A stretch of 64,000 bases of DNA from Sphingopyxis sp. Root154. Lineage in GTDB: Bacteria > Pseudomonadota > Alphaproteobacteria > Sphingomonadales > Sphingomonadaceae. Both the position numbers and the translations under genes were made by a program. Below, piece after piece: positions 678-14,982 of the stretch. The stretch spans positions 1,406,651-1,470,650 of the forward strand of contig NZ_LMGI01000002.1 of NCBI RefSeq assembly GCF_001427105.1. The letters are read 5' to 3'. Numbering within the stretch: the first letter of the stretch is position 1; the number at the start of each line of letters is the position of its first letter. The notes under the pieces are model-generated. The model saw nothing but the letters and a program-made list of their open reading frames with translations. It ran no database searches and was not told where the DNA came from.

Positions 678-2185
678 CAATTTCTCGGTGCCTGCCGCCG
701 ATAGCTGAGCGCTTCGGCGATGTGGATGCGCCCGACATCTTCGCTGCCCGCCAGATCGGCGATCGTTCGCGCGACGCGCAGGATTCGCGTATAACCGCGC
801 GCCGACAGCCGCATCGCTTCAGCCGCCTGCGCGAGCAGTTTACGTCCCGCTTCGTCGGGGGTCGCGACGGCTTCGAGCAGCTCGCCGTCGATCTCGGCAT
901 TGGTTCGCGCCTTGTGCGTTGCATAGCGTACGGTCTGCGCCGCGCGCGCGGCCGCCACGCGCGCCGCGACCTCGGCACTGCCCTCGGCGGGCGGCGGCAG
1001 GACGAGGTCGGCGGCGCTCACCGCCTGCACCTCGACATGCAGATCGATGCGGTCGAGCAGCGGCCCCGATAGTTTCGCCTGATAATCGGCGGCGCAGCGC
1101 GGCGCTCGGCTGCACGCGAGCGCGGGATCGCCGAGATGGCCGCAGCGGCACGGGTTCATCGCCGCGACCAGCTGGACGCGCGCCGGGAAGGTGACATGCG
1201 CGTTGGCGCGCGCAACGCTGACTTCGCCCGTCTCGAGCGGCTGGCGCAGCGAATCGAGCACGCCGCGCTGGAATTCGGGCAATTCGTCGAGGAACAGCAC
1301 GCCCAGATGCGCGAGGCTGACCTCGCCCGGCCGCACGCGCAGCCCGCCACCGACGAGCGCGGGCATCGATGCCGAATGATGCGGGCTGCGAAACGGCCGC
1401 GCGCGGATCAGGCGTCCGCCCTCGAGGTTCCCGGCGACCGACGCGATCATCGACACTTCGAGCGCCTCGGCGGGCGTAAGGTCGGGCAGGATGCCGGGCA
1501 TGCACGCCGCCATCAGCGACTTGCCCGCACCCGGCGGTCCCGACATCATCAGGTTGTGCGCGCCGGCAGCGGCGATTTCGAGCGCGCGCTTGGCGGTCTC
1601 CTGCCCCTTCACCTGGCGCAGGTCGGCGGTGCGCACCGGCGCTTCGACCTCGCCCGGCACCGGCGCCGCGAGCAGGGCATTGCCCCGGAAATGGTTGAGC
1701 AGCGACAGGAGGTCGGGCGCGCCAAGCACCTCGACATTGCCCGCCCACGCCGCCTCGGGCCCCTGCACCGCAGGGCAGATCAGCCCGAGCCCGGCGCTGC
1801 CCGCATGGATCGCGGCGAGGAGCACGCCGGGCGACGCCGCCACGCGCCCGTCGAGCCCGAGTTCGCCGACGACCACATAAGAGGCGAGCGTCTCGGCATC
1901 GATGACGCCCATCGCGCCGAGCAGCGCGAGCGCGATCGGCAGGTCGTAGTGCGAGCCTTCTTTCGGCAGGTCGGCGGGCGACAGGTTGACGGTGATGACC
2001 TTGGGCGGGAGCGACAGGCCGATCGCGGCGATCGCGGCGCGGACGCGCTCGCGGCTTTCGCCCACCGCCTTGTCGGGCAGGCCGACGACGACGAAGCGCG
2101 GGACGCCGGGGGTGATCTGGCACTGCACCTCGACCCCGCGCGCGTCGATGCCGAGATACGCAACAGTAGAAACGACTGCGACCAT
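677..2185 (-). CDS. comM: YifB/ComM family Mg-chelatase-like AAA+ ATPase
   Basis: A 502-residue protein with the full YifB/ComM layout: an N-terminal ChlI-type domain (residues 20-140), then an AAA+ domain with Walker A GPPGAGKS at about 216-223 and Walker B VLFLDE at about 296-301, a Cys-rich loop beginning NPCRCGHLGD near 340, and a C-terminal Mg-chelatase lid. The family drives branch migration during recombination and natural transformation. The frame extends up to 2326, but the ATG at 2185 sits behind a run of six G and starts the conserved sequence MVAVVSTVAYLGIDA, so this start is chosen. It is divergent from tetR and coupled to the DUF1905 gene downstream. Confidence 0.92.
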   Translation of the reverse strand: MVAVVSTVAYLGIDARGVEVQCQITPGVPRFVVVGLPDKAVGESRERVRAAIAAIGLSLPPKVITVNLSPADLPKEGSHYDLPIALALLGAMGVIDAETLASYVVVGELGLDGRVAASPGVLLAAIHAGSAGLGLICPAVQGPEAAWAGNVEVLGAPDLLSLLNHFRGNALLAAPVPGEVEAPVRTADLRQVKGQETAKRALEIAAAGAHNLMMSGPPGAGKSLMAACMPGILPDLTPAEALEVSMIASVAGNLEGGRLIRARPFRSPHHSASMPALVGGGLRVRPGEVSLAHLGVLFLDELPEFQRGVLDSLRQPLETGEVSVARANAHVTFPARVQLVAAMNPCRCGHLGDPALACSRAPRCAADYQAKLSGPLLDRIDLHVEVQAVSAADLVLPPPAEGSAEVAARVAAARAAQTVRYATHKARTNAEIDGELLEAVATPDEAGRKLLAQAAEAMRLSARGYTRILRVARTIADLAGSEDVGRIHIAEALSYRRQAPRN

Positions 2186-2311
2186 ATTCCCCCCGGAACA
2201 GCACCGGTGTGCCCCCTTTGTTCCGAAGCCATGTTTAGGCGAAGTGGCGGGAAGGTCGAGTCTTTTTGCAACTTCTCGATCATCGCGCACATCGCCGATG
2301 TTTATGCCCAT

Positions 2312-2340
2312 TTGACAACATACCAACTAGTCGGTATGTA
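2312..2340 (+). promoter_or_regulatory. Sigma-70-type promoter of tetR and the detox array
   Basis: A perfect -35 TTGACA (2312-2317), a 17-bp spacer and a -10 TATGTA (2335-2340). The predicted transcription start (2346-2348) falls on or next to the tetR ATG at 2348, so the message would be leaderless. The spacer holds a TetR-type palindrome. Confidence 0.75.
2318..2339. promoter_or_regulatory. TetR-type operator palindrome in the tetR promoter
   Basis: A 22-bp inverted repeat, ACATACC-N8-GGTATGT, with a near-palindromic centre (AACTAGTC). It fills the space between -35 and -10, so a bound repressor would block RNA polymerase. Its shape matches operators of autoregulated TetR-family repressors; the likely ligand is the protein encoded 8 bases further on. 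Binding is inferred from sequence only. Confidence 0.72.
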
Positions 2341-2347
2341 GATTCGC

Positions 2348-3037
2348 ATGACGACGAATCAGCCCCCCTCGATCCCCGCAGCCGCCGCCCGCGATGTCCC
2401 CCTGGCGGGCGGCGGCACCCCCGGGGTCCGCGCTCCCCGCGGCAGTGCGCGCGCCAAGCTGATCGCCGCGGCGCATGCCACGGTGCGCAAGCAGGGTTAT
2501 GCGGCGACGACGGTCGATCAGATTTGCGCGGCGGCGGGCGTGACCAAGGGCGCCTTTTTCCATCATTTCGCATCGAAGGAAGAGCTGGCGATAGCGGCGG
2601 CCGAGGGCTGGACCGAACGCGCGCGGCCGATGTTCGAACGCGCGCCGCATGTCAGCCTCGAGGACCCGCTCGACCGCCTGCTCGGCCATATCGATTTCCG
2701 CCTGTCGATGCTCGACGGCCCCACGGAAGATTATACCTGCTTCGTCGGCACGATGGTGCAGGAAGCCTATGCGACGAACGACCGCATCCGCGCGGCGTGC
2801 GAGGCGAGCATCAACGCCTATTGCCAGGCGCTCGCGCCCGACATCCAGGCGGCGATGGACGTTTATGGCGTGCCCGAGGACGTCACCGCGATCGGCCTCG
2901 CCCAGCATGTTCAGTCGGTGCTGCAGGGCGCCTTCGTTCTGGCGAAAACGACGAACGACCCGGCGATTGCCCGCGGCACCGTCACCCATTTGAAGCGTTA
3001 TGTCCGGATGCTGTTCGGCGCGGGAAGCGCGCCATGA
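2348..3037 (+). CDS. TetR/AcrR family transcriptional regulator
   Basis: A 229-residue regulator with a TetR_N helix-turn-helix at about residues 35-82 (ARAKLIAAAHATVRKQGYAA, then TVDQICAAAGVTKGAFFHHF) and a C-terminal ligand domain resembling TetR_C groups of AcrR-like repressors. The first 30 residues are a Pro/Ala/Gly-rich extension. The ATG at 2348 is the only usable start before the DNA-binding core, because an in-frame TAG lies at 2339-2341. The gene stands first in a long co-directional array of VOC and GST genes, with a 72-base gap to the next, so it probably represses itself and the array until an electrophile or similar inducer binds. Confidence 0.9.
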   Translation: MTTNQPPSIPAAAARDVPLAGGGTPGVRAPRGSARAKLIAAAHATVRKQGYAATTVDQICAAAGVTKGAFFHHFASKEELAIAAAEGWTERARPMFERAPHVSLEDPLDRLLGHIDFRLSMLDGPTEDYTCFVGTMVQEAYATNDRIRAACEASINAYCQALAPDIQAAMDVYGVPEDVTAIGLAQHVQSVLQGAFVLAKTTNDPAIARGTVTHLKRYVRMLFGAGSAP

Positions 3038-3109
3038 TGCGACGGGTAATTGCCGCCGCGCACCGCGCACGCTGACATCAACGAACCAATACCCCCAAGG
3101 AGAGAAGAG

Positions 3110-3544
3110 ATGCCCAAGATGATCTTCGTCAACCTGCCGGTCGCAGATCTCGCCAGGTCGAGGGCCTTCTACGAAGCAATCGGCTTCACCAACGAGCCCC
3201 GCTTCAGCGACCACACCGGCGCCGCCATGATGTGGTCGGACACGATCGTCGTGATGATCCTGACCCACGACAAATGGAAAGGCTTCACCGACCGCCCCAT
3301 CCCGCCCGCGACGTCGAGCGAGGTGTCGCTGGCGCTGGCGCTCGACAGCCGCGAAGCGGTCGACGCGATGATCGAAGCGGGCGCGGCGCACGGCGGCACC
3401 GCCGACGTCAACCCGGTGCAGGATTATGGCTTCATGTATGGCCGCGACCTGCTCGACCCCGACGGCCATGTCTGGGCCCCCTTCTGGATGGAGCCCGCGG
3501 TCGCCAATGGCGAGCAACCGATGCCCGCAGTCGCCGCCGAGTAG
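3110..3544 (+). CDS. VOC family (glyoxalase-fold) protein
   Basis: A 144-residue single-domain protein of the vicinal oxygen chelate superfamily. It opens with MPKMIFVNLPVADLARSRAF and ends with LDPDGHVWAPFWMEP, both typical of the glyoxalase/bleomycin-resistance fold. The reaction is unknown. The start at 3110 follows AAGGAGAGAAGAG, which overrides the longer open frame beginning at 3050. It is a close paralogue of the next gene, pointing to a local duplication. Confidence 0.88.
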   Translation: MPKMIFVNLPVADLARSRAFYEAIGFTNEPRFSDHTGAAMMWSDTIVVMILTHDKWKGFTDRPIPPATSSEVSLALALDSREAVDAMIEAGAAHGGTADVNPVQDYGFMYGRDLLDPDGHVWAPFWMEPAVANGEQPMPAVAAE

Positions 3545-3629
3545 AACGGCGGTGAAGCGGACGACCCGCCGATCGCCGGCGCCGCAAACCAACCCGAATA
3601 AACACCCCCCCAAAAAAGGAGAGAAGACG

Positions 3630-4067
3630 ATGCCCCAGATGATTTTCGTGAACCTGCCGGTCACCGACCTCGACAAGTCGAAAGCCTTTTACGAGGCGGT
3701 TGGCGCGGCGAACAACCCCGCCTTCACCGACGACACCGCCGCCTGCATGGTGGTCGAGGAAGGGTCGATCCACGTCATGCTGCTGACGCATGAAAAATGG
3801 GCGACCTTCACGTCGAAGAAAATCCCCGACGCGCACACGACCGCACAGGTCCTGCTCTGCGTGTCGGCCGACAGCCGCGACGCGGTCGACGGACAGGTCG
3901 ACAAGGCGGTCAAGGCGGGCGGCAAGGCCGACCCGACCCCGACGCAGGACTTCGGCGGCTTTATGTACGGCCGCAGCTTCGAGGATCCCGACGGCCATAT
4001 CTGGGAAGTGATGTGGATGGACCCGACCGCGATCCCCGCCGGCGAACCCGCCGAAACGGCCGCCTGA
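3630..4067 (+). CDS. VOC family (glyoxalase-fold) protein, paralogue of preceding gene
   Basis: A 145-residue protein that lines up with the preceding VOC gene over its whole length (MPQMIFVNLPVTDLDKSKAF at the start, EDPDGHIWEVMWMDP at the end). The ribosome binding site AAGGAGAGAAGACG is almost the same as that of its neighbour. Proteins of this subgroup are often annotated as glyoxalase-like or extradiol-dioxygenase-like with no proven substrate. No signal peptide. Confidence 0.88.
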   Translation: MPQMIFVNLPVTDLDKSKAFYEAVGAANNPAFTDDTAACMVVEEGSIHVMLLTHEKWATFTSKKIPDAHTTAQVLLCVSADSRDAVDGQVDKAVKAGGKADPTPTQDFGGFMYGRSFEDPDGHIWEVMWMDPTAIPAGEPAETAA

Positions 4068-4090
4068 CGAGCATAGGGAGGAGGAAGAGG

Positions 4091-4507
4091 ATGACCGATA
4101 ATATCCCCACCAAGGGCCAGTTGATTGCCGGCCGCGTTTTGAGCGGCCTTGTGATCCTCTTCCTGCTCTTCGACGCCGGGCTGAAGCTGGTGTCGCCCGA
4201 AACGGCGATCAAATATAGCCCGCCCGGCCTCGGATGGCCGCTCGAGATCGGCACGATGTATCTGCTTGGGCTCCTGCTGCTGATCCCGACCCTGCTCTAT
4301 ATCTGGCCGCGCACCGCGATCCTCGGCGCGATCCTGATCACCGGCTATCTCGGCGGCGCGATCGGCACGCATGTGCGCATCAATAGCCCGCTGTTCAGCC
4401 ACAGCCTGTTCGGCGTCTACCTGGGCTTGATGCTGTGGGGCGGCCTGTGGCTGCGCGATCCGCGCCTCCGCGCGCTGATCCCGCTCAGGGCAGGAGCGAG
4501 CGCATGA
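4091..4507 (+). CDS. DoxX-like four-helix membrane protein
   Basis: A 138-residue protein with four hydrophobic segments (about residues 12-32, 52-72, 78-95 and 107-122). The stretch VILFLLFDAGLKLVSPETAI, the central LEIGTMYLLGLLLLIPTLLY and GAILITGYLGGAIGTHVR are typical of DoxX-like proteins. These inner-membrane proteins are linked to redox and thiol stress in some bacteria, but no role can be assigned here. It overlaps the next gene as ATGA. Confidence 0.82.
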   Translation: MTDNIPTKGQLIAGRVLSGLVILFLLFDAGLKLVSPETAIKYSPPGLGWPLEIGTMYLLGLLLLIPTLLYIWPRTAILGAILITGYLGGAIGTHVRINSPLFSHSLFGVYLGLMLWGGLWLRDPRLRALIPLRAGASA

Positions 4508-4722
4508 GCTTTCAGGCCTATATCGACAATGTCGAAACCAAGACCGGCAAATCGGCCGGCGCGCTGAAGGCCATCGCGATCGAAAAAGGCCTCGCCGACG
4601 AAAGCGGCCTCGCCCCGGGGATCAAGGCGGGTGCGATCATCGACTGGCTGAAGGCCGATTACCACCTCGGCCATGGCCACGCGATGTCGATCGTCGCCTG
4701 GATCAAAGGCAAACGGTCCTAG
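4504..4722 (+). CDS. DUF4287 domain protein
   Basis: A 72-residue protein that is a complete DUF4287 domain: MSFQAYIDNVETKTGKSAGA at the start and WLKADYHLGHGHAMSIVAWI near the end. The start codon overlaps the preceding stop (ATGA), so it is probably translated by coupling. The family is small, cytoplasmic and of unknown function, and is often found near glyoxalase-like and START-domain genes. Confidence 0.8.
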   Translation: MSFQAYIDNVETKTGKSAGALKAIAIEKGLADESGLAPGIKAGAIIDWLKADYHLGHGHAMSIVAWIKGKRS

Positions 4723-4753
4723 CCTCCGTCTTTAGAACAAGAGGAATAGTCGA

Positions 4754-5725
4754 ATGACAAACCACTCCTCCAGTTGGAGCTTCGTGCCCGTCTTCGCGCT
4801 GCTCGCCGCCGCGAGTGCCGCCGCGGCCTTGCCGCAGCCGGCGCACGCCGCGCCGCCCGCAGCCGCCCCCGCAGCCGCCAAGGCCGCAGCACCGGTTACG
4901 GTCCGGAATGGCGACGTCGATGTGAACGGCACGCGCATCCATTACCAGCTGCACGGCGATCTCACGCCCGGCAAGAACCCGCTGCTCGTGCTCCACGGAG
5001 CGTTCATGTTCGCCGACGCGATGAAGCCGCTGATCACCCCCCTGGCCGCGACGCGCCCGGTGATCGCGATCGACGCGCGCGGCCATGGCCGGTCGGGCGG
5101 GGTCGACGGCAAGCTCAGCTATGACCTGATGGCCGAAGACGCCGCCGCCGTGCTCGCCAAGCTCGGCGTGAAACAGGCCGACGTGCTCGGCTATTCGATG
5201 GGCGCGTCGACCGCGATCGCGCTTGCGGTGCGCCACCCCGCACGCATCGGCAAGCAGGTGGTCCTGTCGGGAACCTCGCGACTCGACGGCTGGTATCCCG
5301 AAGTGCTGGCCGGCATCGCAGAGCTGACCGCGGCGACCTTCGCCGGCAGCCCGATCGAGACGGGTTACAAGAGCCTGTCGCCGACGCCCGAGAAATTTCC
5401 GAGACTGGTCGAGAATATCAAGACGCTCGACGCCACGCCCTTCGCCTATTCCGACGAACAGCTTCGCGCGATCCCAGGCAAGACGATGGTGATCATCGGC
5501 GACGCCGACGGCGTCAGGCTCGATCACGCGATCCAGCTGTTCAAGCTGCGCGGCGGCGGCGACATCGCCGCGGCGACGCAGGGTTTCATGACCGAAGCCC
5601 CGAAGGCGCGGCTCGCGATCCTGCCCGCGACATCGCACATCGGGATCATGAGCGAAGTGCCCGCGATCGTCGCGATGGTCGTGCCCTTCCTCGACGACAA
5701 GGCCCCGCCACCGCCCGCGTTCTGA
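4754..5725 (+). CDS. Exported alpha/beta hydrolase
   Basis: A 323-residue hydrolase. Residues 1-32 form a signal peptide ending AHA, followed by a low-complexity Ala/Pro linker to about 48. The fold then shows the oxyanion strip LVLHGAF (81-84), the DARGHGRS strand and the nucleophile elbow GYSMG with Ser148; a candidate acid lies in IIGDADG and the histidine in ATSHIGIM. It is therefore likely a periplasmic esterase, lactonase or related enzyme. The ATG follows GAGGAAT. It is the only clearly exported soluble protein in the array. Confidence 0.87.
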   Translation: MTNHSSSWSFVPVFALLAAASAAAALPQPAHAAPPAAAPAAAKAAAPVTVRNGDVDVNGTRIHYQLHGDLTPGKNPLLVLHGAFMFADAMKPLITPLAATRPVIAIDARGHGRSGGVDGKLSYDLMAEDAAAVLAKLGVKQADVLGYSMGASTAIALAVRHPARIGKQVVLSGTSRLDGWYPEVLAGIAELTAATFAGSPIETGYKSLSPTPEKFPRLVENIKTLDATPFAYSDEQLRAIPGKTMVIIGDADGVRLDHAIQLFKLRGGGDIAAATQGFMTEAPKARLAILPATSHIGIMSEVPAIVAMVVPFLDDKAPPPPAF

Positions 5726-5767
5726 CCCCGTTTTCCTCGCCATCGAATAACCGAGAGGAGTTTCATC

Positions 5768-6442
5768 ATGCCCGTCGATCCGAATGCGACGATCGAAATC
5801 ACCGGCTATCAATGGGTGCCACCCTTCGCCGAGGGGCGCATCAAGGACCTGCGCATTCGCTGGGCGCTGGAAGAGATCGGCCGCCCCTATCGCGAGCGCC
5901 TGATCGGCGGAATCTTTGAGGAGAAGCCACCGGAATATCTGGCGGACCAACCCTTCGGACAGGTTCCGGCGTTCAAGGAAGGGGACGTGGCGCTGTTCGA
6001 ATCGGGTGCAATTCTGCTCCACATCGGCGAGCAGGACGAACGCCTGTTGCCGCGCGGCGCGGCAGCGCGTGGGCGCGGCATCAGCTGGATGATCGCCGCG
6101 CTGAACAGCGTCGAGCCGATGTTGCAGGTACTGGTTATTTTGAGCGTCGCGGGAGCGAATCACGACTGGCAGGAAGCCGCAAAGGACGCTGCGCGACCGT
6201 TCGCCGAGAAGCGGCTGGCGCAACTGTCGCGCGCGCTTGGCGATCGCCTGTGGCTGGACGACAGCTTCACCATCGGCGACCTGGTCATGATCGACGTTCT
6301 GCGCGCCGTGCCGACGCCAATGCTCGCCGCACATCCCAACCTCGCCGCCTATATCGAGCGCGGCACACAGCGGCCCGCATTCGGACGGGCGCTTGAGGCG
6401 CAGCTCGCCTCTTACGGAAAGCATGCGACGCAAGACGCGTGA
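5768..6442 (+). CDS. Glutathione S-transferase family protein
   Basis: A 224-residue cytosolic GST. The N-terminal thioredoxin-like domain contains the glutathione-site pattern FGQVPAFKEGDVALFESGAI (cis-Pro and the Glu-Ser pair), followed by an all-helical C-terminal domain with FTIGDLVMIDVLR. The sequence before the first beta strand is about 15 residues longer than usual. It is paralogous to the next gene. The start follows GAGAGGAGTTTCATC. It probably conjugates or reduces an electrophile; the substrate is unknown. Confidence 0.87.
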   Translation: MPVDPNATIEITGYQWVPPFAEGRIKDLRIRWALEEIGRPYRERLIGGIFEEKPPEYLADQPFGQVPAFKEGDVALFESGAILLHIGEQDERLLPRGAAARGRGISWMIAALNSVEPMLQVLVILSVAGANHDWQEAAKDAARPFAEKRLAQLSRALGDRLWLDDSFTIGDLVMIDVLRAVPTPMLAAHPNLAAYIERGTQRPAFGRALEAQLASYGKHATQDA

Positions 6443-6473
6443 TTTCTGCCATCTGTTCGAAAGGAGAGTCATC

Positions 6474-7145
6474 ATGTCCGTGAACCAGAACGCCAAGCTC
6501 GAGATAACCGCCTTCGACTGGGTCCCCGATTTCGCGCGCGGCTATGTCCGCGACCTGCGCCCGCGCTGGGCGTGCGAGGAAATCGGCCTCGATTATGCCG
6601 AGCATCTGATCAGCGCGATCAACCGCCCCGCCGACCATTTCCTGTTCCAGCCATGGGGGCAGGTTCCTGTGCTCAACGACGGCGGCATCCGCCTGTTCGA
6701 AAGCGGCGCGATCCTGCTCCACCTCGCCGAAAAGGACGCGCGGCTGATGCCCCGCGATCCGCAAGCGCGCGCCAACACGCTCGCCTGGCTGTTCGCCGCC
6801 TATAACAGCGTCGAACCGATGCTGTTCGAGCTGGGCAATGTCGACATTTTCTCGACCGAAGAGGAATGGGCGAAGCTGCGCCGCCCGAGCCTGATCGAAT
6901 TCATCCAGGGCCGGCTCGGCCGCCTGAACGACGCGATTGGCGACAAACAATATCTCACGGGCGAATTCAGCGTCGCCGACATCGCGATGGCGACCGTGCT
7001 GCGCGAAGGCGTCGAGGCCGGGCTGATCGCCGAACAGCCGCGACTGCAGGCATATCTCGACCGCTGCCTCGCGCGGCCGGCGTTCCAGCGCGCGATGGAC
7101 GCGCAGCTCGCCGCGTTCAGCGAAGAGAATGGCCCGCCCGCCTGA
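6474..7145 (+). CDS. Glutathione S-transferase family protein, tandem paralogue
   Basis: A 223-residue GST with the same N-terminal extension and layout as the previous gene (EITAFDWVPDFARGYVRDLR against EITGYQWVPPFAEGRIKDLR). The glutathione site reads WGQVPVLNDGGIRLFESGAI and the C-terminal domain carries FSVADIAMATVLREG. The start at 6474 follows AAGGAGAGTCATC; the longer open frame lacks such a site. The pair is a tandem duplication that has clearly diverged. Confidence 0.87.
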   Translation: MSVNQNAKLEITAFDWVPDFARGYVRDLRPRWACEEIGLDYAEHLISAINRPADHFLFQPWGQVPVLNDGGIRLFESGAILLHLAEKDARLMPRDPQARANTLAWLFAAYNSVEPMLFELGNVDIFSTEEEWAKLRRPSLIEFIQGRLGRLNDAIGDKQYLTGEFSVADIAMATVLREGVEAGLIAEQPRLQAYLDRCLARPAFQRAMDAQLAAFSEENGPPA

Positions 7146-7182
7146 CAACCCGCCCTCTCAACCCCTCCCCAGGAGAGAGACC

Positions 7183-7740
7183 ATGACAGCTCCGCTGTTT
7201 GCGCAAATATCGGTGTCGCTCGACGGCTTCATCGAAGACCCTGACAAGAATATCGACTGGATGACCGAGGATGCATCGGTCGACGCGCTGCACACGCGCA
7301 CGCTGGATGAAATCGGCGGCATGATCTTTGGCCGCATGGCGCATGCCATGATCGCCGATTTCTGGATCGATGCGGCGGGGCAAACCGGCCTGCCGTCCGA
7401 TCTGGCACAGCAGACCGAACGGATGACCGCGCTGCCCAAATATGTGCTGACACACGGCAGCGATGTTGGCGGCTGGACGCAAAGCCACGCGATCACGCTG
7501 GGCGATGTGGCGCGCCTCAAGGCCAAAGCGACGAAGCCGATTGCCGTCTTCGCGGGGGCGGGCGCGATCCAGTCCGTGCTGGGCTCCGGGTTGATCGAGG
7601 AGCTGCGGCTGATCCGTTACCCCGTCGTACTCGGCGGCGGCACACCGCTGTTCGCGGCCGACGGCAAGCGGCGCCAACTGGTGCCGTTGGGTCAGGAGAA
7701 ATTTGCATCGGGGGCCACACTGGAGCGTTTCAGAATCTGA
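7183..7740 (+). CDS. Dihydrofolate reductase-like (RibD C-terminal) family protein
   Basis: A 185-residue protein of the RibD_C / DHFR-like fold: QISVSLDGFIEDPDKNIDW at the start, GRMAHAMI in the middle and FAGAGAIQSVLGSGLIEELR with YPVVLGGGTPLF near the end, the usual NADPH-fold signatures of this group. It is a stand-alone domain of the YyaP/YwjB type, whose members are rarely characterised, and is not expected to be the housekeeping DHFR. Ribosome binding site AGGAGAGAGACC. Confidence 0.85.
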   Translation: MTAPLFAQISVSLDGFIEDPDKNIDWMTEDASVDALHTRTLDEIGGMIFGRMAHAMIADFWIDAAGQTGLPSDLAQQTERMTALPKYVLTHGSDVGGWTQSHAITLGDVARLKAKATKPIAVFAGAGAIQSVLGSGLIEELRLIRYPVVLGGGTPLFAADGKRRQLVPLGQEKFASGATLERFRI

Positions 7741-7775
7741 AGGGACGCCCCGAACCCAAATGAAGGAGAGAGAAG

Positions 7776-8495
7776 ATGACCTATGTAGAAGGATTTGTCC
7801 TTGCGGTCCCCACCGCGAACAAGGAAGCGTACCGCAAGCATGCCGCCGATGCTGCGCCCCTGTTCAAGGAATTCGGTGTCGCGCGCATGGTCGAATGTTG
7901 GGGTGACGACGTCCCCGACGGCAAGGTGAACGACTTCAAGGGCGCGGTGCAGGCGAAGCCCGACGAGACCGTCGTGTTCAGCTGGTTCGAATATCCCGAC
8001 AAGGCGACGCGCGACGCTGCGAACGAAAAGATGATGAGCGACCCGCGCATGGCGCAGATGGGCGGCGAGATGCCGTTCGACGGCAAGCGCATGATCATCG
8101 GCGGATTCGATTCGATCGTCGACGACCGTGCCGAAGGCAAGACCGGCTACGCCGACGGCTATATCGTACCCGTCCCCGAAGCCAACAAGGAAGCGTACCG
8201 CGAGCTGGCGCAGAAGATGTCGGGCGTGTTCCTCGATTATGGCGCGACGCGCGTCGTCGAGGCGTGGGCCGACGATGTCCCCGACGGCAAGGTCACCGAC
8301 TATGCCCGCGCAGCGCACAAGAAGGACGGCGAGACCGTCGTCTACAGCTGGGTCGAATGGCCGAGCAAGGAAGCGCGCACCAAGGGATGGGAAACGATGA
8401 TGGCCGACGAGCGGATGAAAGCGAGTTCCGAGAACACCCCGTTCGACGGCGCGCGCATGATCTATGGCGGTTTCGCGCCGATCGTCGAAGCCTGA
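7776..8495 (+). CDS. Fused tandem DUF1428 protein
   Basis: A 239-residue protein made of two copies of DUF1428 (about 1-117 and 124-239), a domain normally found as one protein of about 117 residues. Both halves share the pattern G-(F/Y)-(V/I)-x-(A/P)-VP-x-ANKEAYR, a central DDVPDGKV and a closing PFDG-(K/A)-RM-I-(I/Y)-GGF. The two halves have diverged but keep the same core residues, so this is an internal duplication that would make a covalent dimer. DUF1428 has a dimeric alpha/beta-barrel fold; the activity is unknown. Start follows AAGGAGAGAGAAG. Confidence 0.88.
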   Translation: MTYVEGFVLAVPTANKEAYRKHAADAAPLFKEFGVARMVECWGDDVPDGKVNDFKGAVQAKPDETVVFSWFEYPDKATRDAANEKMMSDPRMAQMGGEMPFDGKRMIIGGFDSIVDDRAEGKTGYADGYIVPVPEANKEAYRELAQKMSGVFLDYGATRVVEAWADDVPDGKVTDYARAAHKKDGETVVYSWVEWPSKEARTKGWETMMADERMKASSENTPFDGARMIYGGFAPIVEA

Positions 8496-8600
8496 TCGCG
8501 CTGACGGAGGTGCTGACGGCGTACCGTCGCAGCCCCTCCGCCACCGCCTGTGGCTCCCCAATGGCTTCGCCGCAGGGGGATCGAGAGGAAGGATCGAACG

Positions 8601-9239
8601 ATGATAAAACTTTACGGAACGCCCCCCACCCGCGCGCTGCGCGCGATGTGGCTCTTGAACGAGCTCGACCTCGCCCACGAAATTGTCTCGATCGACCTCG
8701 GCGCCGGCGAGCAGCTGACGCCCGAATTTCTGGCACTCAATCCGGCCGCGAAACTGCCGGTTCTGGTCGACGGCGACCTGGTGGTGAGCGAATCGGCGGC
8801 TATCCAGCTCTATCTGGCCGATAAATATGGCGACCGCTTTCCCGGCCGCGGCCTGATCCCCGATACGGCCGAAGAGCGCGGCCAGATGTATCGCTGGCTG
8901 TTTTTCCTGATGACCGAGATCGAGGCGCCGCTGTGGCGGATCGCTTTGCACAGCTTCCTCTATGCGTCCGACGAGCAATCGGCCGCGGAAATCGCGCTGG
9001 CGAGGCGCGATTGCAAACGGATGATCGCGGTCTTCGAACAGCATATGCAGCGGCGCAATTTTGTCGTCGGCGAGCAGGTGACGGTGGCCGATTTCAACGC
9101 CGCCTACACGCTCGATTGGGCCAAGCTCGAGGACATGCTGGACGATGCCCCCGCGCTCAGCGCCTATCTGGAATCGATGTACGCGCGGCCCAAGGCACCG
9201 GTGACCATCGCCGAAGCCATGGCGGAGCTGGAAGCATGA
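8601..9239 (+). CDS. Glutathione S-transferase family protein
   Basis: A 212-residue GST with a standard N-terminus (MIKLYGTPPTRALRAMWLL), glutathione-site region NPAAKLPVLVDGDLVVSESA and C-terminal VTVADFNAAYTLDWA. It is more typical of the broad GST family than the preceding pair and has no N-terminal extension. The start follows GAGAGGAAGGATCGAACG. Its stop codon overlaps the start of the next gene (ATGA). Confidence 0.87.
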   Translation: MIKLYGTPPTRALRAMWLLNELDLAHEIVSIDLGAGEQLTPEFLALNPAAKLPVLVDGDLVVSESAAIQLYLADKYGDRFPGRGLIPDTAEERGQMYRWLFFLMTEIEAPLWRIALHSFLYASDEQSAAEIALARRDCKRMIAVFEQHMQRRNFVVGEQVTVADFNAAYTLDWAKLEDMLDDAPALSAYLESMYARPKAPVTIAEAMAELEA

Positions 9240-9787
9240 CCCGCAGCGAGCCGGGCATGACGCGCACGGCCTCGTGCCAGTGCGGCGCGGTGAGGCTGGA
9301 ACTCAGCGGCCAGCCGATCGTCGCGGCGACCTGTTATTGCCATAGCTGCCAGCAAGCGGGGCGGGGCTTCGAAGCCTTGCCCGGCGCGCCGGGAGTCGTC
9401 GGTCCCGATGGCGGGACGCCCTATGTGCTGATGCGCAAGGACCGGCTGCAATGGCTGTCGGGATCAGACCAGCTGGAGGAGCATCGGATCGAACCCGATT
9501 CGCCGACGCGGCGGTTCGTCGCGCGCTGCTGCAACGCGCCGATCGCGCTCGAATTCACCAAGGGCCATTGGCTGAGCGTCTATTCGGCGCGCATTCCTGA
9601 GGCCGAGCGCCCGGCGGCCGAGATGCGGACGATCGTGGGCGACCGACCCGACGGGGTCGAGCTGCCGGACGACATCCCCAATTATGCCACGCCGACGGGC
9701 AAGTTCATGTGGCGACTGCTGAAAGCCTGGGCCGCGATGGGTTTCCGCGCCCCGCCGCTCGAAGCGACGAAGGGATATGCGCGATGA
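9236..9787 (+). CDS. GFA/CENP-V-like zinc-binding protein
   Basis: A 183-residue protein with the N-terminal zinc-site cysteines of the glutathione-dependent formaldehyde-activating (GFA) fold: ASCQCGAV (Cys14, Cys16) and CYCHSC (Cys33, Cys35, Cys38), plus a later ARCCNAP. The C-terminal half matches a branch of the family often given a separate DUF number, so formaldehyde chemistry should not be assumed. A second ATG at 9257 would remove seven residues. It is coupled to genes on both sides by ATGA overlaps. Confidence 0.8.
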   Translation: MTRSEPGMTRTASCQCGAVRLELSGQPIVAATCYCHSCQQAGRGFEALPGAPGVVGPDGGTPYVLMRKDRLQWLSGSDQLEEHRIEPDSPTRRFVARCCNAPIALEFTKGHWLSVYSARIPEAERPAAEMRTIVGDRPDGVELPDDIPNYATPTGKFMWRLLKAWAAMGFRAPPLEATKGYAR

Positions 9788-10083
9788 GCAAAAATATCGA
9801 ACGCACCGAGATGCGCAGCATAACCAGTCCCGATTTCGCGATGCAGGTCGACAAGGCGAAATATGGCGCGATGAAGGAGGCGCTGCTCGCGGCGGTGCCG
9901 AAAACCGTGCCGGGGCTGACCGTCGCCGAGGTCAAGGAACGCGTGCTCCCGCTGCTCCCCGACCACCTGTTCCCCGGCGGCGCCAAGGCGGGCTGGTGGC
10001 TGAAGGGCGTCCAGCTTGATCTTGAGGCCCGTGGGCTGATCGCGCGCGAAAATGTGAAGCCGCTGCGGCTGCACCGGCTATAA
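9784..10083 (+). CDS. Small conserved protein (DUF6958-like)
   Basis: A 99-residue soluble protein with a helix-rich pattern (DKAKYGAMKEALLAAVP, LTVAEVKERVLPLLPDHLFP, WWLKGVQLDLEARGLIAREN). The C-terminal half looks like a winged-helix fold with the ending LRLH, reminiscent of small conserved proteins called DUF6958; this match is from memory and tentative. It overlaps the GFA-like gene as ATGA. No membrane segment or signal. Confidence 0.7.
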   Translation: MSKNIERTEMRSITSPDFAMQVDKAKYGAMKEALLAAVPKTVPGLTVAEVKERVLPLLPDHLFPGGAKAGWWLKGVQLDLEARGLIARENVKPLRLHRL

Positions 10084-10106
10084 GCGAACTCAGGAGGAAG
10101 CAGGCC

Positions 10107-10823
10107 ATGCAACATCTGTCCTTCCCGAACGAGAGCGAAGCCTATCGCGCCGCGCGCGCCGAACTGCTCGCCGACGAAATCGCGCTGCGCCGCCAGATCG
10201 AGGCGGTCGCCGCCAAGCGCCGCGCGCTGCCGCCGGGCGGCGCGGTACCCGAGGATTATAGCTTCGAGCGCATCGGCGCTTTCCAGCGTCCCGAGCGGGT
10301 CAGATTGTCCGAGCTGTTCGAGGGCAAGCCGAGCATCATCCTGCAAAGCTTCATGTTCGGGGCCGAACGCGACAAGCCGTGCGACGGCTGCACGCATATG
10401 CTCGACGCGATCGACGGCAGCGCCCGACACGTCGGGCAGCGCGCGCCGCTCTATATCGTCGCCAAGTCGCCGATCGCGCGGCTCGAAGCCTGGGCGAAGG
10501 AGCGGCGCTGGCCGCACCTGATCTTCCTGTCCGACGTCGATGGGCGCTATTCGGCCGATTATTTCGGCGACACGTCGAAGCTGACCGACGCCAAGCGCGC
10601 CGAGCATGGGATGAAGCCCGGCGAGAATTGGGACGAGACGATCTTCAACGTGTTCCGCAAGGACGGGACCAGGATTCGCCACGTCTGGGCGAGCGAGATG
10701 GCCTATGCGCCCGAGGATCCCGGCCAGCACCACCGCGCGGGCGACCTCGTCGATCCCTTGTGGGGCCTGCTCGACATGACGCCCGAGGGGCGTGGCGACT
10801 GGTTCCCCAGCCTGACCTACTAA
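10107..10823 (+). CDS. DUF899 thioredoxin-like protein
   Basis: A 238-residue protein of the DUF899 family, which has a thioredoxin-like fold. It shows the family features: an N-terminal helix (AYRAARAELLADEIALRRQ), FMFGAERDKPCDGCTHMLD with a Cys-x-x-Cys pair (92 and 95), FLSDVDGRYSADY, and a C-terminal WGLLDMTPEGRGDWFP. The cysteine pair suggests a redox role. Start follows AGGAGGAAGCAGGCC. Confidence 0.86.
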   Translation: MQHLSFPNESEAYRAARAELLADEIALRRQIEAVAAKRRALPPGGAVPEDYSFERIGAFQRPERVRLSELFEGKPSIILQSFMFGAERDKPCDGCTHMLDAIDGSARHVGQRAPLYIVAKSPIARLEAWAKERRWPHLIFLSDVDGRYSADYFGDTSKLTDAKRAEHGMKPGENWDETIFNVFRKDGTRIRHVWASEMAYAPEDPGQHHRAGDLVDPLWGLLDMTPEGRGDWFPSLTY

Positions 10824-10847
10824 ACCGAAGCATCGAGGAGAGAGACG

Positions 10848-11642
10848 ATGACCAAGGCAGCCAATTTCATCTGGTACGAATTGATGACCCCCGATCCCGC
10901 GGGCGCGGCGTCCTTTTACGGCGCCGTCGTCGGCTGGACCATCGCGGCGCATAACGACGCCGCGGCCGGCGGCATCGATTATCGCATGATCGGGCGCAGC
11001 GACGGCGGCAACGCGGGCGGGGTGCTCGCGCTGAGTGCCGACATGCTCGCGGGCGGCGCACGGCCGGGCTGGCTCGGTTATCTGGAGGTCGCCGACGTCG
11101 ATGCGAGCATCGATGCGATCAAGGCCGATGGCGGCGCGGTGCATATGCCCGCGACCGACCTGCCCGTCGGCCGCATCGCGATGGTCAGCGACCCGCAGGG
11201 CGCGCATTTCTATATCATGGACCCGATCCCGCCCGAGGGTGCCGTTCCGGGGGAAAGCGGCGTGTTTTCGGTCACCGAAGCGCAGCATGTGCGCTGGAAC
11301 GAACTCGCGACCAGCGACTCCGACGCCGCGATCGCCTTCTACAAAAAGCATTTCGGCTGGGGGCAGGAGGGCGAGATGGATATGGGCCCGATCGGCGCCT
11401 ACCGCTTCGTCCAGCGCGGCGAAGTGATGATCGGCGCGGTGATGCCTTTGATGGAGGGCTATCCGGTGCCGGTGTGGAATTTCTACATTGGTGTCGACGA
11501 CATCGACCGCGCGCACGCCGCGGTGACCGCGAACGGCGGCACGATCACCAGCGAGCCGATGGAAATCCCAGGCGGCGAATATGCGATGAACGCGATCGAC
11601 CCGCAGGGCGCGCCCGTCGGCTTCGTCGGCCCGCGCAAATAG
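10848..11642 (+). CDS. Two-domain VOC family protein
   Basis: A 264-residue protein with two VOC modules (about 5-125 and 140-262). Each begins with a WYEL/WNEL-type strand: FIWYELMTPDPAGAASFYG and VRWNELATSDSDAAIAFYKK, and each ends with DPQGA. This layout matches the CFP30B/hydroxylase-like group of two-domain VOC proteins, where the domains pair inside one chain. The substrate is unknown. Ribosome binding site GAGGAGAGAGACG. Confidence 0.88.
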   Translation: MTKAANFIWYELMTPDPAGAASFYGAVVGWTIAAHNDAAAGGIDYRMIGRSDGGNAGGVLALSADMLAGGARPGWLGYLEVADVDASIDAIKADGGAVHMPATDLPVGRIAMVSDPQGAHFYIMDPIPPEGAVPGESGVFSVTEAQHVRWNELATSDSDAAIAFYKKHFGWGQEGEMDMGPIGAYRFVQRGEVMIGAVMPLMEGYPVPVWNFYIGVDDIDRAHAAVTANGGTITSEPMEIPGGEYAMNAIDPQGAPVGFVGPRK

Positions 11643-11658
11643 GCAAAGGAGAGAGAGG

Positions 11659-12072
11659 GTGGAAAACCAGGGCCCGACGACGGGACTGACCCCGCATATC
11701 GCCATCGCCGACAAGCGCGCGAGCGAGGCGATCGATTTCTACATCAAGGCGTTCGGCGCGACCGAGAATGTGCGCATGCCCGCGGACGACGGCGTGCGGC
11801 TGATGCACGCGCATCTGACGATCAACGGCGCGTCGCTGATGATGCACGACGAATTTCCCGAATATGTCAGCGAACCCTCGGGCAAGCCCGATGGCGTGAC
11901 CTTGCACCTGCACGTCGACGACGCCGACGCCTGGTTCGACCGCGCGGTCGCCGCGGGCGCGACGGTGGTGATGCCACTCGACAATATGTTCTGGGGAGAC
12001 CGCTACGGCCAAATCAAGGATCCGTTCGGCCATCTATGGTCGATCGGCGCGCCGATCAAAGGAGAGAAGTGA
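11659..12072 (+). CDS. VOC family protein, PhnB-like
   Basis: A 137-residue PhnB-like VOC protein: LTPHIAIADKRASEAIDFYI, then LTINGASLMMHDEFPEY and the closing WGDRYGQIKDPFGHLWSIG, a hallmark of this subgroup. It starts with GTG behind AAGGAGAGAGAG. Its stop codon overlaps the next start (TGATG). PhnB itself has no settled function. Confidence 0.87.
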   Translation: MENQGPTTGLTPHIAIADKRASEAIDFYIKAFGATENVRMPADDGVRLMHAHLTINGASLMMHDEFPEYVSEPSGKPDGVTLHLHVDDADAWFDRAVAAGATVVMPLDNMFWGDRYGQIKDPFGHLWSIGAPIKGEK

Positions 12073-12584
12073 TGACGAACCAACCGACAAGCCAACCCGT
12101 GACCCTCTGCCTCTGGTACGACAAGGATGCCGAGGAAGCCGCGACCTTCTATGCCGCGACCTTCCCCGACAGCAAAGTCGGGTCCGTCCACAAGGCGCCG
12201 GGCGACAATCCGAGCGGCAAGGAAGGCGACGTGCTGACGGTCGACTTCACCGTGCTTGGCATTCCGTGCGTCGGGCTCAACGGCGGCCCCGCCTTCAAGC
12301 ATAGCGAGGCCTTTTCCTTTCAGGTCCATACCGACACGCAGGAGGAAACCGACCGTTACTGGAACGCGATCGTCGGCAACGGCGGACAGGAAAGCATGTG
12401 CGGCTGGTGCAAGGACAAATGGGGCCTCAACTGGCAGATCACCCCGCGCGTGCTAACCGACGCAGCGATGGGCGGCGACCCCGCAGCCGCCAAACGCGCG
12501 TTCGAGGCGATGATGACGATGAAGAAGATCGACATCGCGAAGATCGAGGCCGCGGTGCGGGGTGAAGCCGTTGGCGCGGCGTAG
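12072..12584 (+). CDS. VOC family protein (3-demethylubiquinone-9 methyltransferase-type fold)
   Basis: A 170-residue protein of the PhnB/3-demethylubiquinone-type VOC group: VTLCLWYDKDAEEAATFYAA, VGLNGGPAFKHSEAFSFQV and CKDKWGLNWQITPRVL are its diagnostic stretches. Despite the old family name it is not expected to be a methyltransferase. It follows AAAGGAGAGAAGTG and is coupled to the upstream VOC gene. Confidence 0.87.
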   Translation: MTNQPTSQPVTLCLWYDKDAEEAATFYAATFPDSKVGSVHKAPGDNPSGKEGDVLTVDFTVLGIPCVGLNGGPAFKHSEAFSFQVHTDTQEETDRYWNAIVGNGGQESMCGWCKDKWGLNWQITPRVLTDAAMGGDPAAAKRAFEAMMTMKKIDIAKIEAAVRGEAVGAA

Positions 12585-13023
12585 CCCGGCGCTCTTCGCG
12601 TGGCTGCTCTGCGGCACGCTCGACATCGTCTATGCGGCGGTGTCGAGCGTCGTGCAGGGGGGCACCGTCTCTTCGATGCTGCATGCCGTTGCCAGCGGCC
12701 CGTTCGGCGATGCCGCGCGCGGCTGGGGCATCGGCGGCGATATCGCGGGGCTGGCGACGCATTATGCGATCATGGGCGCGATGGTCACGGCGTGGTTCTT
12801 CGTCGCGCGGCGTTGGAATGCGCTGACGGCCTGGCCGTGGTGGCTCACGGGCACGCTCTACGGGCTGCTGCTCTATGTCATCATGAACGGGATCGTGCTG
12901 CCGCTGCGCTTCGGATTGCCCTTCCCGCCCGCCGACCTCGTCAAGGGCGCAATCGCGCTCTTCCCGCATATTTTCTTCGTCGGCTGGCCGCTCGCCTGGC
13001 TGACGCGCAAGGATAACAATTGA
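12562..13023 (+). CDS. Small four-helix membrane protein
   Basis: A 153-residue protein with four hydrophobic stretches (about 9-28, 65-85, 92-115 and 128-147). The GTG start lies 23 bases inside the preceding VOC gene; a TTG at 12571 would shorten it by three residues. FAWLLCGTLDIVYA and LATHYAIMGAMV recur in small inner-membrane proteins distantly like the YagU family. No function can be given. Its stop overlaps the next start (TGATG). Confidence 0.72.
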   Translation: MKPLARRSPALFAWLLCGTLDIVYAAVSSVVQGGTVSSMLHAVASGPFGDAARGWGIGGDIAGLATHYAIMGAMVTAWFFVARRWNALTAWPWWLTGTLYGLLLYVIMNGIVLPLRFGLPFPPADLVKGAIALFPHIFFVGWPLAWLTRKDNN

Positions 13024-13676
13024 TGCTGATTTATTATGGCCACCCTTTCTCCTCCTACACATGGAAGGCGCTGATCGCGCTCTACGAAAAGGGGATCGAT
13101 TTCGAGTATCGCTCGGTCGACCCGACGTTTCCGGAGCATATGCCCGAACTGCGGGCGCACTGGCCGGTCGGGCAGTTCCCACTCCTCGTCCACGACGGGG
13201 TGCCATACTTCGAATCGTCGATCATCATCGAATATCTCGACCGGCTGGTGTCCGAACCGCGCCTGATCCCGCAGGATTTCGACGCGGCGCTGAAAGTCCG
13301 GCTGCTCGACCGCGTCTTCGATAATCATGTCATGGGCCGGATGCAGGCGGTCGTGGCCGACGCGATACGCGGGCCCGAGAATCATGTGCCACTGATCGTC
13401 GATCAGTCGAAAGCCGCGCTCGAGACCATCTATGGCTGGCTCGACAAGGAGCTGGCGGGCGGCGGCTGGGCAACGCCCGACGGTTTCACCCTCGCCGATT
13501 GCGCCGCCGCGCCGTCGCTCTTTTACGCCGACTGGGTGCATGAAATCGACGGAAAATACGAGAATCTGCGCGCCTACCGCGCCCGCCTGCTCGCGCACCC
13601 GTCGGTGTCGCGCTGCGTCGAGGATGCCCGGCCCTACCGCCCCTACTTCCCGCTCGGTGCACCCGACCGCGACTGA
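13023..13676 (+). CDS. Glutathione S-transferase family protein
   Basis: A 217-residue GST with N-terminus MLIYYGHPFSSYTWKALIAL, glutathione-site region WPVGQFPLLVHDGVPYFESS and a C-terminal helical domain containing FTLADCAAAPSLFYADW. The Ser-Ser-Tyr-Thr start resembles beta- or zeta-related bacterial GSTs. It is the last gene of the co-directional detox array; the following gene has a different type of start region. Confidence 0.86.
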   Translation: MLIYYGHPFSSYTWKALIALYEKGIDFEYRSVDPTFPEHMPELRAHWPVGQFPLLVHDGVPYFESSIIIEYLDRLVSEPRLIPQDFDAALKVRLLDRVFDNHVMGRMQAVVADAIRGPENHVPLIVDQSKAALETIYGWLDKELAGGGWATPDGFTLADCAAAPSLFYADWVHEIDGKYENLRAYRARLLAHPSVSRCVEDARPYRPYFPLGAPDRD

Positions 13677-13761
13677 CGAAGGCCGTCCCATATCGGGGTT
13701 AACGCGGCGCTGACGCTGCCTGTTCGCCATTTGATAGGCGCGCACGCGCGAAGGCGGACGC

Positions 13762-14544
13762 ATGGTTTCGCCATCCGCCTTTCTGCGCACGCTCATTGTC
13801 GCCGCACTCGCGGCGGTGCTGGCGTTCGCGCCGGCGCAGGCGCAGCAGGTCGTGACGATCACCACGACGACGGTGACGTGGACCTATGACGATGCCGGCG
13901 ACGACGACGGCGCGGAGTATATCGACGAAGATGCCGCGCTGCTGGGGGACGAGGCGCTCACCGAAGATGCCGATTTCGCGGCGACGCGCCGTTATGCGCC
14001 CGCCGCCACGCTCGCGACGCTCGGCCACGCCAAGGCCAGCTTCGGTCCCTTCTCGGTGATCGACAGCGCGACCGTCCGCATGGCGGGCGACGTCACTTCG
14101 GCGACCCCGCGCCAGTTCGCGGCGATGCTCGCGGCCTTTCCTGGGCTCAAGCGGCTTGAGATGACCGACTGCCCCGGCAGCCTCGACGAGGAAGCCAATC
14201 TGATCCTCGCGCGGGCCATCCGCCGCGCCGGGATGGAAACCGTCGTTCCGGCGGGCGGCTCGATCCGCTCGGGCGCAGTCGAGCTGTGGCTCGCGGGCGT
14301 CACCCGCCGCGCCGCGCCCGACGCCGAATTCGGCGTCCATAGCTGGGCCGACGAATATGGCCGCGAGGCGAACGACTATCCCGCGAACGACCCGGTCCAC
14401 GCCGAATATCTGGGCTATTACCGCGAAATGGGGCTGAACGACGCCAAGGCGCGCGAATTTTACGCGCTGACCAACAGCACCCCGTTCGACAATGTCCGCT
14501 ATCTGACGCGCGACGATATGGCACGCTTCGTCACGCTCAACTGA
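13762..14544 (+). CDS. Secreted ClpP/crotonase-fold-like protein
   Basis: A 260-residue protein with a signal peptide (residues 1-27, ending AQA) and an acidic linker. The C-terminal 170 residues resemble the ClpP/serine-dehydrogenase-proteinase fold: LKRLEMTDCPGSLDEEANLI, a helix ARAIRRAGMETVVP, then IRSGAVELWLAG with a Ser in the position of the ClpP nucleophile, and EFGVHSW with the matching His. It is probably a periplasmic protein of the COG3904 type. Catalysis is inferred, not shown. It has its own short upstream gap of 85 bases. Confidence 0.7.
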   Translation: MVSPSAFLRTLIVAALAAVLAFAPAQAQQVVTITTTTVTWTYDDAGDDDGAEYIDEDAALLGDEALTEDADFAATRRYAPAATLATLGHAKASFGPFSVIDSATVRMAGDVTSATPRQFAAMLAAFPGLKRLEMTDCPGSLDEEANLILARAIRRAGMETVVPAGGSIRSGAVELWLAGVTRRAAPDAEFGVHSWADEYGREANDYPANDPVHAEYLGYYREMGLNDAKAREFYALTNSTPFDNVRYLTRDDMARFVTLN

Positions 14545-14608
14545 CGCGGCTTGGCGGCGGCGCTGCTTTAGCCTTGTAACACGCCGCCCCCTCCCCCACA
14601 TCGCCCCC

Positions 14609-14944
14609 ATGGCGAAACGCAGCCTCTACCAGCGATTGCGCACGAACCCACAGGTGCGAACAGGGCTGTTCGTCCTTGGCTTGCTGCTGATGATCGCCGC
14701 ACCGCTGCTCGGTCCGCTGCCGGGGCCCGGCTTTATCCTCCTCTTTCCCGCGGGACTGATGCTGGCTTTGCAGAACAGCGAGTGGGCGAAACGCGTCTAT
14801 GTCCGCTTCAAACGGCGCCACCCGCGCTATGCCGGCTGGACCGACCGCCTGATGCGGCGCAGCAGCGCGGCGCGGCGGCGCGAGCGCGACGCGCAAGAAG
14901 CGATCGATGGCGAAACGCCCGAAAACCGCGCCAATGGCAATTGA
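14609..14944 (+). CDS. PGPGW-type small membrane protein
   Basis: A 111-residue protein with one long or two short hydrophobic segments (about 18-36 and 41-58) around the motif GPLPGPGFILLFPAGLMLAL, the signature of the putative transmembrane PGPGW family. The C-terminal half is very basic and probably cytoplasmic. It lies directly upstream of the rpmH promoter, whose -35 overlaps its stop codon. Function unknown. Confidence 0.8.
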   Translation: MAKRSLYQRLRTNPQVRTGLFVLGLLLMIAAPLLGPLPGPGFILLFPAGLMLALQNSEWAKRVYVRFKRRHPRYAGWTDRLMRRSSAARRRERDAQEAIDGETPENRANGN

Positions 14945-14969: not shown

Positions 14970-14982
14970 CGCCTCCATCAGT

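Follow-up and report, generated by a model that had tools for sequence, protein, structure and literature searches.

A TetR-headed array of 18 genes in Sphingopyxis sp. Root154, likely a chemical-stress operon, and its relatives in the genus and beyond

The stretch of 64,000 nucleotides from Sphingopyxis sp. Root154 analyzed in this work (hereafter the window; contig NZ_LMGI01000002.1, positions 1,406,651 to 1,470,650) carries a tetR gene (2348-3037) followed on the same (+) strand by 18 genes, the last of which ends at position 13676. This array of about 11 kb, which represents 0.24% of the 4.73-Mb host genome, is genuine and beyond chance. Judging from its sequence, it is probably a single autorepressed stress operon whose repressor would be gated through a thiol by electrophiles or reactive chlorine species. 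More generally, the array is likely a chemical-stress operon, similar in type to the Escherichia coli nemRA-gloA operon and to the AltR/alt clusters, but large and modular. The operator-bearing promoter, the tetR gene and the co-directional array that a first-pass annotation of the window had described are all present where it had placed them (Table 1).

Gene order, operator position, conservation and the sensor residues of the repressor were read directly from the sequences. The candidate operator, a palindrome, matches only one place in the window with up to three mismatches, compared to none in 100 shuffles. With at most one mismatch, it was found in 69 of the 80 genomes of the genus, at a single place in each and 9-72 bp from the tetR match, and the reversed pattern, used as a control, gave no match in these genomes. 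The box that abuts the operator is exactly TTGACA in 66 of 70 sequences from the genus; in other genera, TTGAC is present in 12 of 21 sequences. The operator pattern is missing at three orthologues of the genus (one at a contig end, two with altered copies) and at three of 24 loci from other genera. A regulon with multiple operator sites is not supported: none of the 69 genomes has a second place at one mismatch or fewer, more divergent sites not having been sought. The start codon of tetR lies 8 bases past the operator and no ribosome binding site is visible by eye upstream of it; the tetR mRNA is perhaps leaderless. The N-terminus of TetR, M-x-x-N/S-Q/R, looks conserved by eye over several genera, as could be expected of a leaderless start.

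The array is widespread in the genus. TetR orthologues (E-value below 1e-70) are present in 73 of the 80 genomes, the next match being at 4.8e-16, and matches to the DUF1428 protein and to the PhnB-type VOC protein were found in 76 and 77 of them, respectively. Synteny, a check proposed by the first-pass annotation, was examined in the 64 arrays of relatives that are complete on one contig (excluding the window itself and arrays split between contigs); all counts are of hits and not of genes, a split gene scoring twice. None of the 704 hits is inverted and the gene order is the same in 56 arrays. Gaps are short (median of 38 bp; 200 bp or less in 728 of 768), and since 20 of the 27 gaps exceeding 400 bp come after GST-d, this gene is considered as the 3′ end of the array. 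No array homologue was found beyond yidC in 297 kb from loci with a yidC match; locus L056, which has no such match, carries a YjdN-like hit (30%) past hyp1 on the opposite strand. The composition is not fixed: arrays contain 4 to 16 hits (median 11). The PhnB-like VOC gene is the most retained member (all 64 arrays), followed by GST-b and DUF1428 (63 each), VOCd (61), GST-d (60), DUF4287 (49), VOC2 (47), MemP, i.e. the 153-residue protein (41), DoxX and YjdN (39 each), the hydrolase (33), GFA (31), DUF899 (28), DUF6958 (22), VOC1 (21), GST-c (17) and GST-a (13). RibD_C has no tblastn match in any other fetched locus of the genus (0 of 64 arrays) and was probably gained in the lineage of the window.

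In the window, the array lies between a comM-like gene (- strand) and two unnamed genes followed by rpmH-rnpA-yidD-yidC (+ strand). The names comM, rpmH, rnpA, yidD and yidC were given by eye, with no family search behind them, and the comM open reading frame used for reading the site (677-2326) has its frame judged only by conservation. Three relatives (G012, G058 and G079) carry no array homologue between comM and rpmH-yidC; only hyp1 or hyp2 is found there, at 0.4-0.6 kb from comM. A five-gene version of the array including tetR sits on another contig of G058, and G066 keeps YjdN, PhnB and GST-d beside a 30-residue scrap of tetR. The array thus behaves as a separate block, which some genomes lack, keep in a shortened form or carry at another place. 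Taken together, the conserved operator, the uniform orientation, the short gaps and the three array-free sites give good sequence support to the earlier proposal that the array is one unit. A recent horizontal island was considered and rejected: the G+C content of the array matches its surroundings, and the array occupies the comM to hyp1-rpmH site in most fetched loci of the genus. A conserved protein of 260 residues without Pfam match (13762-14544) adjoins the array in most of these loci; since it is kept at two of the three array-free sites, it is probably outside the array.

Stop and start codons overlap at five of the 18 junctions (three ATGA and two TGATG) and one more pair of genes overlaps by 23 nucleotides, in agreement with the overlaps first described. 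A terminator scan of positions 1500-15500 gave 17 sites on both strands, compared to 10.3 ± 3.5 in shuffles. None of the six plus-strand sites falls between genes from 3037 to 13676, so that the reported lack of a clear terminator holds. RNA folding of four junctions (z-scores from -1.36 to 1.17) gives no claim of a terminator or of an attenuator. Alternatively, the array could be a gene neighbourhood in which tetR controls itself and the nearest genes while distal genes have their own promoters, a view compatible with other readings of the signal. The 85-bp gap after VOC1, the 105-bp gap before GST-c and the 62-269 bp found between GST-b and DUF1428 in ten relatives, with hairpin-like repeats by eye in several of them, could accommodate such promoters. 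However, a scan restricted to sigma-70-like promoters found only one in 14 kb, on the opposite strand, compared to 1.7 expected. Furthermore, the absence of inverted hits, the overlapping starts and the fact that different loci also have these genes following this tetR make this neighbourhood quite unlikely. The stretch that precedes DUF1428 (7740-7776 in the window; after GST-b in relatives, loci L092, L095, L096 and L104-L108) contains a C-rich tract plus AAGGAGAGA. It coincides with a contig end, 8-27 bp from the DUF1428 start, in the drafts G022, G031, G034, G041 and G050; the break of five draft assemblies of the genus at this place suggests a sequencing drop-out.

The repressor itself points to thiol gating. 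Cys60, Cys131 and Lys200 are invariant in all 97 TetR orthologues and in 50 of 50 named-contig sequences, from genomes partly shared with the 97 (the residue and ribosome-site counts on named contigs exclude the genus loci L202 and L205; of the 94 usable TetR sequences, alignment A1 holds 44). Three MAFFT modes and hhalign pair Cys131 and Lys200 with Cys106 and Lys175 of E. coli NemR, and the profile match to 4yze (3.8e-17) gives the same pairing. The control consisted of 27 other TetR_C_13 proteins from the family (30 loci, minus one without a TetR open reading frame and two orthologues): the equivalent cysteine is present in 20 of them and the lysine in one. In the AlphaFold model (mean predicted local distance difference test score of 86.5), Cys131 directly precedes a helix and Lys200 lies in the next-to-last helix. 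This model has a TetR fold with a NemR-like C-terminal domain, although other TetRs score equally or better: NemR ranks second with Foldseek and sixth with VIA-align (Z 18.4, 188 residues, 2.9 Å), after 4l62, 2g7s, 3bru, 3qbm and 3on4, the last two being tied with it. According to reviews, a Cys106-Lys175 bond is the chlorine switch of NemR and Cys21 and Cys116 serve for electrophiles (PMC5297802, PMC7464077), these two cysteines being reported as essential for that response (PMC5297802).

The nemRA-gloA operon resembles the array in that a TetR repressor gene precedes detoxification genes including a glyoxalase. As in repressors of the NemR type, the promoter of the array repressor gene itself appears to contain a palindromic operator. 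The inverted repeat that precedes nemR (taken as the operator) holds ACCGACTGGT, which is also found in the operators of relatives of the array, but not in exact form in the window. However, only two genes follow the regulator in nemRA-gloA compared to 18 in the array, the spacing and symmetry of the operators differ, and no array protein is assigned by Pfam or NCBIfam to the old yellow enzymes (NemA) or to a true GloA; the glyox_I model, with a cut-off of 120 bits, scores 21.3 bits at best on array proteins. The sets controlled by ECF41 and ECF42 (YCII, carboxymuconolactone decarboxylase) resemble the array in consisting of small soluble enzymes, and relatives of the array in the class hold AHSA1, RibD_C and a weak YCII match below cut-off, but these sets are under a sigma factor instead of a TetR repressor (PMC6180224, PMC8999054).

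The same operon could be under a ligand sensor of the AcuR type, its pocket binding a specific metabolite (acrylate or a related enoate) and the array serving one class of compounds. The repressor shares a TetR branch with AcuR, and matches the NCBIfam AcuR model at 3.5e-13, with a score of 49.3 bits that is far under the equivalog cut-off of 247. The structure 3bru, a TetR from Rhodobacter sphaeroides which we take to be AcuR, matches the repressor at 9.1e-16, has the cysteine and the lysine at the same positions and gives a higher Z (19.8) than NemR. We nevertheless consider this explanation unlikely: no family match in Pfam or NCBIfam points to the acrylate pathway, and partners vary widely around a constant regulator, as would be expected of a general stress response more than of a single pathway.

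A thiol-specific operon like that of AltR, induced by thiosulfinates or by disulfide stress and not by carbonyls or chlorine, would also have a NemR-like repressor. AltR is described as a TetR homologue of NemR that depends on one conserved cysteine and represses itself and ten other genes via an inverted repeat (PMC13178969). The IR2 repeat of this system has a half-site similar to that of the array operator; the alt-region repeat TTACCAAC-N6-GTTGGTAA carries the TACCAAC half-site of the array operator with a wider spacing, but the altR box CAATCTAC-N6-GTAGATTG differs by inspection from this operator (PMC13178969). A cluster from another sphingomonad, Novosphingobium sp. Chol11, restored thiosulfinate tolerance in a published comparison (PMC12306174). 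That account suggests that alt clusters typically contain thioredoxin-related genes in tandem, and it has no occurrence of VOC or DoxX, whereas no array protein has a thioredoxin-named family in Pfam, although DUF899 is thioredoxin-like. Overall, an operon of the AltR kind appears very unlikely here.

An autorepressed stress operon is also consistent with the distribution of the regulator outside the genus. Matches to TetR at 1e-40 or better were found in 29 of 298 genomes of the family, 23 of them outside the genus, and in 17 of 385 genomes at the class level, including that of the window. At 24 fetched loci from other genera, the operator core ATACC-N8-GGTAT lies just upstream of tetR in 21 cases, and 88 array homologues (87 on the same strand) are located within 6 kb downstream compared to two in the remaining 237 kb. 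At least one homologue lies downstream at 23 of these loci and at least three at 16, the most frequent being PhnB (17 loci), VOCd (14) and DUF1428 (14). Among 80 listed matches out of at least 581, the regulator is found in Sphingorhabdus, Hyphomonas, Henriciella, Paracoccus, Sneathiella, Roseitalea, Azospirillum and others. A survey of 52 named loci (sharing some genomes with the 24 loci, excluding the Sphingopyxis-labelled L196 and L201 and including the genus loci L202 and L205) gave the operator core, with a laxer pattern, in 39, at least one downstream array homologue in 45 and at least three in 17. Seven of these 52 loci have no array homologue; three of them, checked by Pfam, carry AHSA1, PhnB-like/glyoxalase, RibD_C or weak YCII matches. 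Thus, in other alphaproteobacterial genera the regulator, mostly with the same operator core, is accompanied by genes drawn from one common pool, and its locus is usually a different one. At three Sphingorhabdus-labelled loci (L191, L192 and L194), a smaller array is located near comM; hyp1 precedes tetR instead of following the array, which indicates a rearranged site, and rpmH after the array was seen only in L191. One contig labelled as a metagenome-assembled genome of Klebsiella pneumoniae (L220) bears a tetR-DUF1428-VOC locus of alphaproteobacterial type, and this label is probably wrong.

The proteins of the array (Table 1) all have a Pfam family except the 153-residue protein (12562-13023). 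They include five VOC-type proteins (one of PF06983), four GSTs, a GFA protein, a RibD_C protein, a double DUF1428 protein, a DUF899 protein, DUF4287, DUF6958 and DoxX proteins, a hydrolase that looks exported and a protein of membrane type. This agrees with the families initially listed, the DHFR-like protein being RibD_C in Pfam. The initial count of at least 17 genes after tetR is compatible with the 18 found, although its list omitted DUF6958 (9784-10083) and the 153-residue protein. The nearest solved relatives (4gym, 1u69, 3oxh, 2okq and 2ycd) inform on folds and not on reactions.

Table 1. Candidate promoter elements and genes of the array, with positions in the window.
Feature	Position	Strand	Family or remark
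-35 box TTGACA (candidate)	2312..2317	+	directly abuts operator
Candidate TetR operator, 22-bp palindrome ACATACCAACTAGTCGGTATGT	2318..2339	+	based on sequence conservation
tetR, NemR/AcuR-like repressor gene	2348..3037	+	PF00440 + PF16925; C131 and K200 invariant
VOC protein 1 (VOC1)	3110..3544	+	PF00903/PF22677
VOC protein 2 (VOC2)	3630..4067	+	PF00903; nearest solved structure 4gym, 132 bits
DoxX_2 protein	4091..4507	+	PF13564
DUF4287 protein	4504..4722	+	PF14117; ATGA overlap with DoxX
Alpha/beta hydrolase	4754..5725	+	PF12697; N-terminus export-like by look
GST-a	5768..6442	+	PF02798
GST-b	6474..7145	+	PF02798; nearest solved structures 2ycd and 3lq7, 173 bits
RibD_C (DHFR-like) protein	7183..7740	+	PF01872
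Tandem double DUF1428 (YbaA-like) protein	7776..8495	+	PF07237, two stretches; 2okq YbaA, 175 bits
GST-c	8601..9239	+	PF02798/PF00043
GFA-family protein	9236..9787	+	PF04828, matched at residues 10-41 only
DUF6958 protein	9784..10083	+	PF22278
DUF899 protein	10107..10823	+	PF05988
Double-domain VOC protein	10848..11642	+	PF00903, two stretches; 3oxh Rv0577, 115 bits
YjdN-like VOC protein, GTG start	11659..12072	+	PF00903; NF007537 under its cut-off
PhnB-like/3-dmu-9_3-mt VOC protein	12072..12584	+	PF06983; 1u69, 267 bits
153-residue protein, membrane type by eye	12562..13023	+	without Pfam or NCBIfam match
GST-d, final array gene	13023..13676	+	PF13417

Nearly identical ribosome binding sites had been ascribed to most genes. 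This proved too broad: AGGAGAGA precedes seven of the 19 starts (eight when AGGAGAGT is counted), although it is strongly clustered in the array. All seven plus-strand copies in the window lie inside the array and the minus strand has none; genome-wide, AGGAGAGA-N1-6-ATG occurs at 30 sites, six of them in the array. In the genus (hits aligned from residue 1), GGAGAG is frequent upstream of DUF1428 (66/68), PhnB (20/22), YjdN (17/20) and VOC2 (39/50), less so upstream of VOC1 (4/7), VOCd (25/46) and GST-b (26/68), and was not found upstream of GST-d (0/60), tetR (0/43) or four flanking genes (0/245). AGGAGAGA thus appears to be a strong site common to the VOC, DUF1428 and PhnB-like genes. At loci outside the genus (hits aligned from residues 1-8, above 60 bits), GGAGAG was found for DUF1428 in 7/16 cases, PhnB 0/6, VOCd 1/14, VOC1 1/6, VOC2 1/6 and YjdN 2/2. 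The idea that AGGAGAGA is an ancestral translational signal was rejected, since it is mostly unseen outside the genus.

Several observations weigh against a thiol-gated single operon. The first group concerns the repressor: (i) the non-NemR structures 3bru and 3knw carry the Cys-Lys pair (3qbm and 3dpj do not), so that the pair cannot single out chlorine or electrophile sensing; (ii) the positions of Cys21 and Cys116 of NemR are occupied by Val46 and Tyr141, and the repressor was therefore not filed as a NemR orthologue, being NemR-like in its Cys-Lys pair only; (iii) its identity to NemR is about 16-25% depending on the method; and (iv) 4l62, 2g7s and 3bru exceed NemR by more than 1 Z with VIA-align. 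The second group concerns the operon: the promoter scan does not list the TTGACA promoter, because its -10 candidate is poor and fails the rule of the scan; internal promoters of another type may exist; and eight of the 64 arrays have one order swap, four of these being an extra DUF899-like hit (42-44% identical). Finally, we know of no tie of DoxX, the hydrolase, DUF4287 or DUF6958 to electrophiles. The response to electrophiles or xenobiotics proposed from the outset is supported in part: the families encoded and the Cys-Lys pair of the repressor speak for it, but this pair is shared with proteins other than NemR.

From the features described above, we infer repression, thiol gating, a single transcript and detoxification as follows. 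A TetR dimer would occupy the palindrome between TTGACA and the tetR start and block RNA polymerase. A reactive electrophile or a reactive chlorine species would modify Cys131, perhaps via a Cys131-Lys200 bond as in NemR, and the modified repressor would leave the DNA, giving one transcript of about 11.3 kb. Its products would form a broad set for the detoxification of small molecules: the GSTs would conjugate them to glutathione, RibD_C would reduce them, and the VOC, PhnB-like, GFA and DUF1428 proteins would act on reactive carbonyls by isomerisation, addition or binding, the strong AGGAGAGA ribosome sites favoring the VOC, DUF1428 and PhnB-like products. During evolution, gains and losses would have changed the membership of the operon, with the gene order largely preserved.

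The first-pass annotation knew of no described system with this composition. Indeed, no paper describing the array was found among the matches listed in the literature searched, but its kind is known: thiol-gated TetR repressors heading detoxification genes have already been described (NemR, AltR). What seems new is the size of the array, its largely fixed slots with variable membership, its genus-wide conservation and the cross-genus link of the regulator with DUF1428 and PhnB-type VOC genes. Many sequenced members of Sphingopyxis are reported as xenobiotic degraders (PMC6472365). The array places DUF1428/YbaA, PhnB-type VOC, DUF899, DUF4287 and DUF6958 proteins under a single operator and a single likely signal, which could yield a physiological context for these uncharacterised families. 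More tentatively, the TetR-operator pair could be a "collection point" across Alphaproteobacteria, where a Cys-Lys-gated repressor gathers a changing set of enzymes for reactive metabolites (PhnB-type VOC, DUF1428/YbaA, double VOC, GST, RibD_C, AHSA1, DUF899, DUF4287 and DUF6958) with fixed slots within the genus; we regard this as possible, with some doubt. If so, DUF1428 and PhnB-type VOC proteins would share a physiological role, the handling of metabolites damaged by electrophiles or chlorine. Furthermore, the 64 arrays, mostly in one order and with 4 to 16 members, represent a natural series on the gain and loss of genes in long operons.

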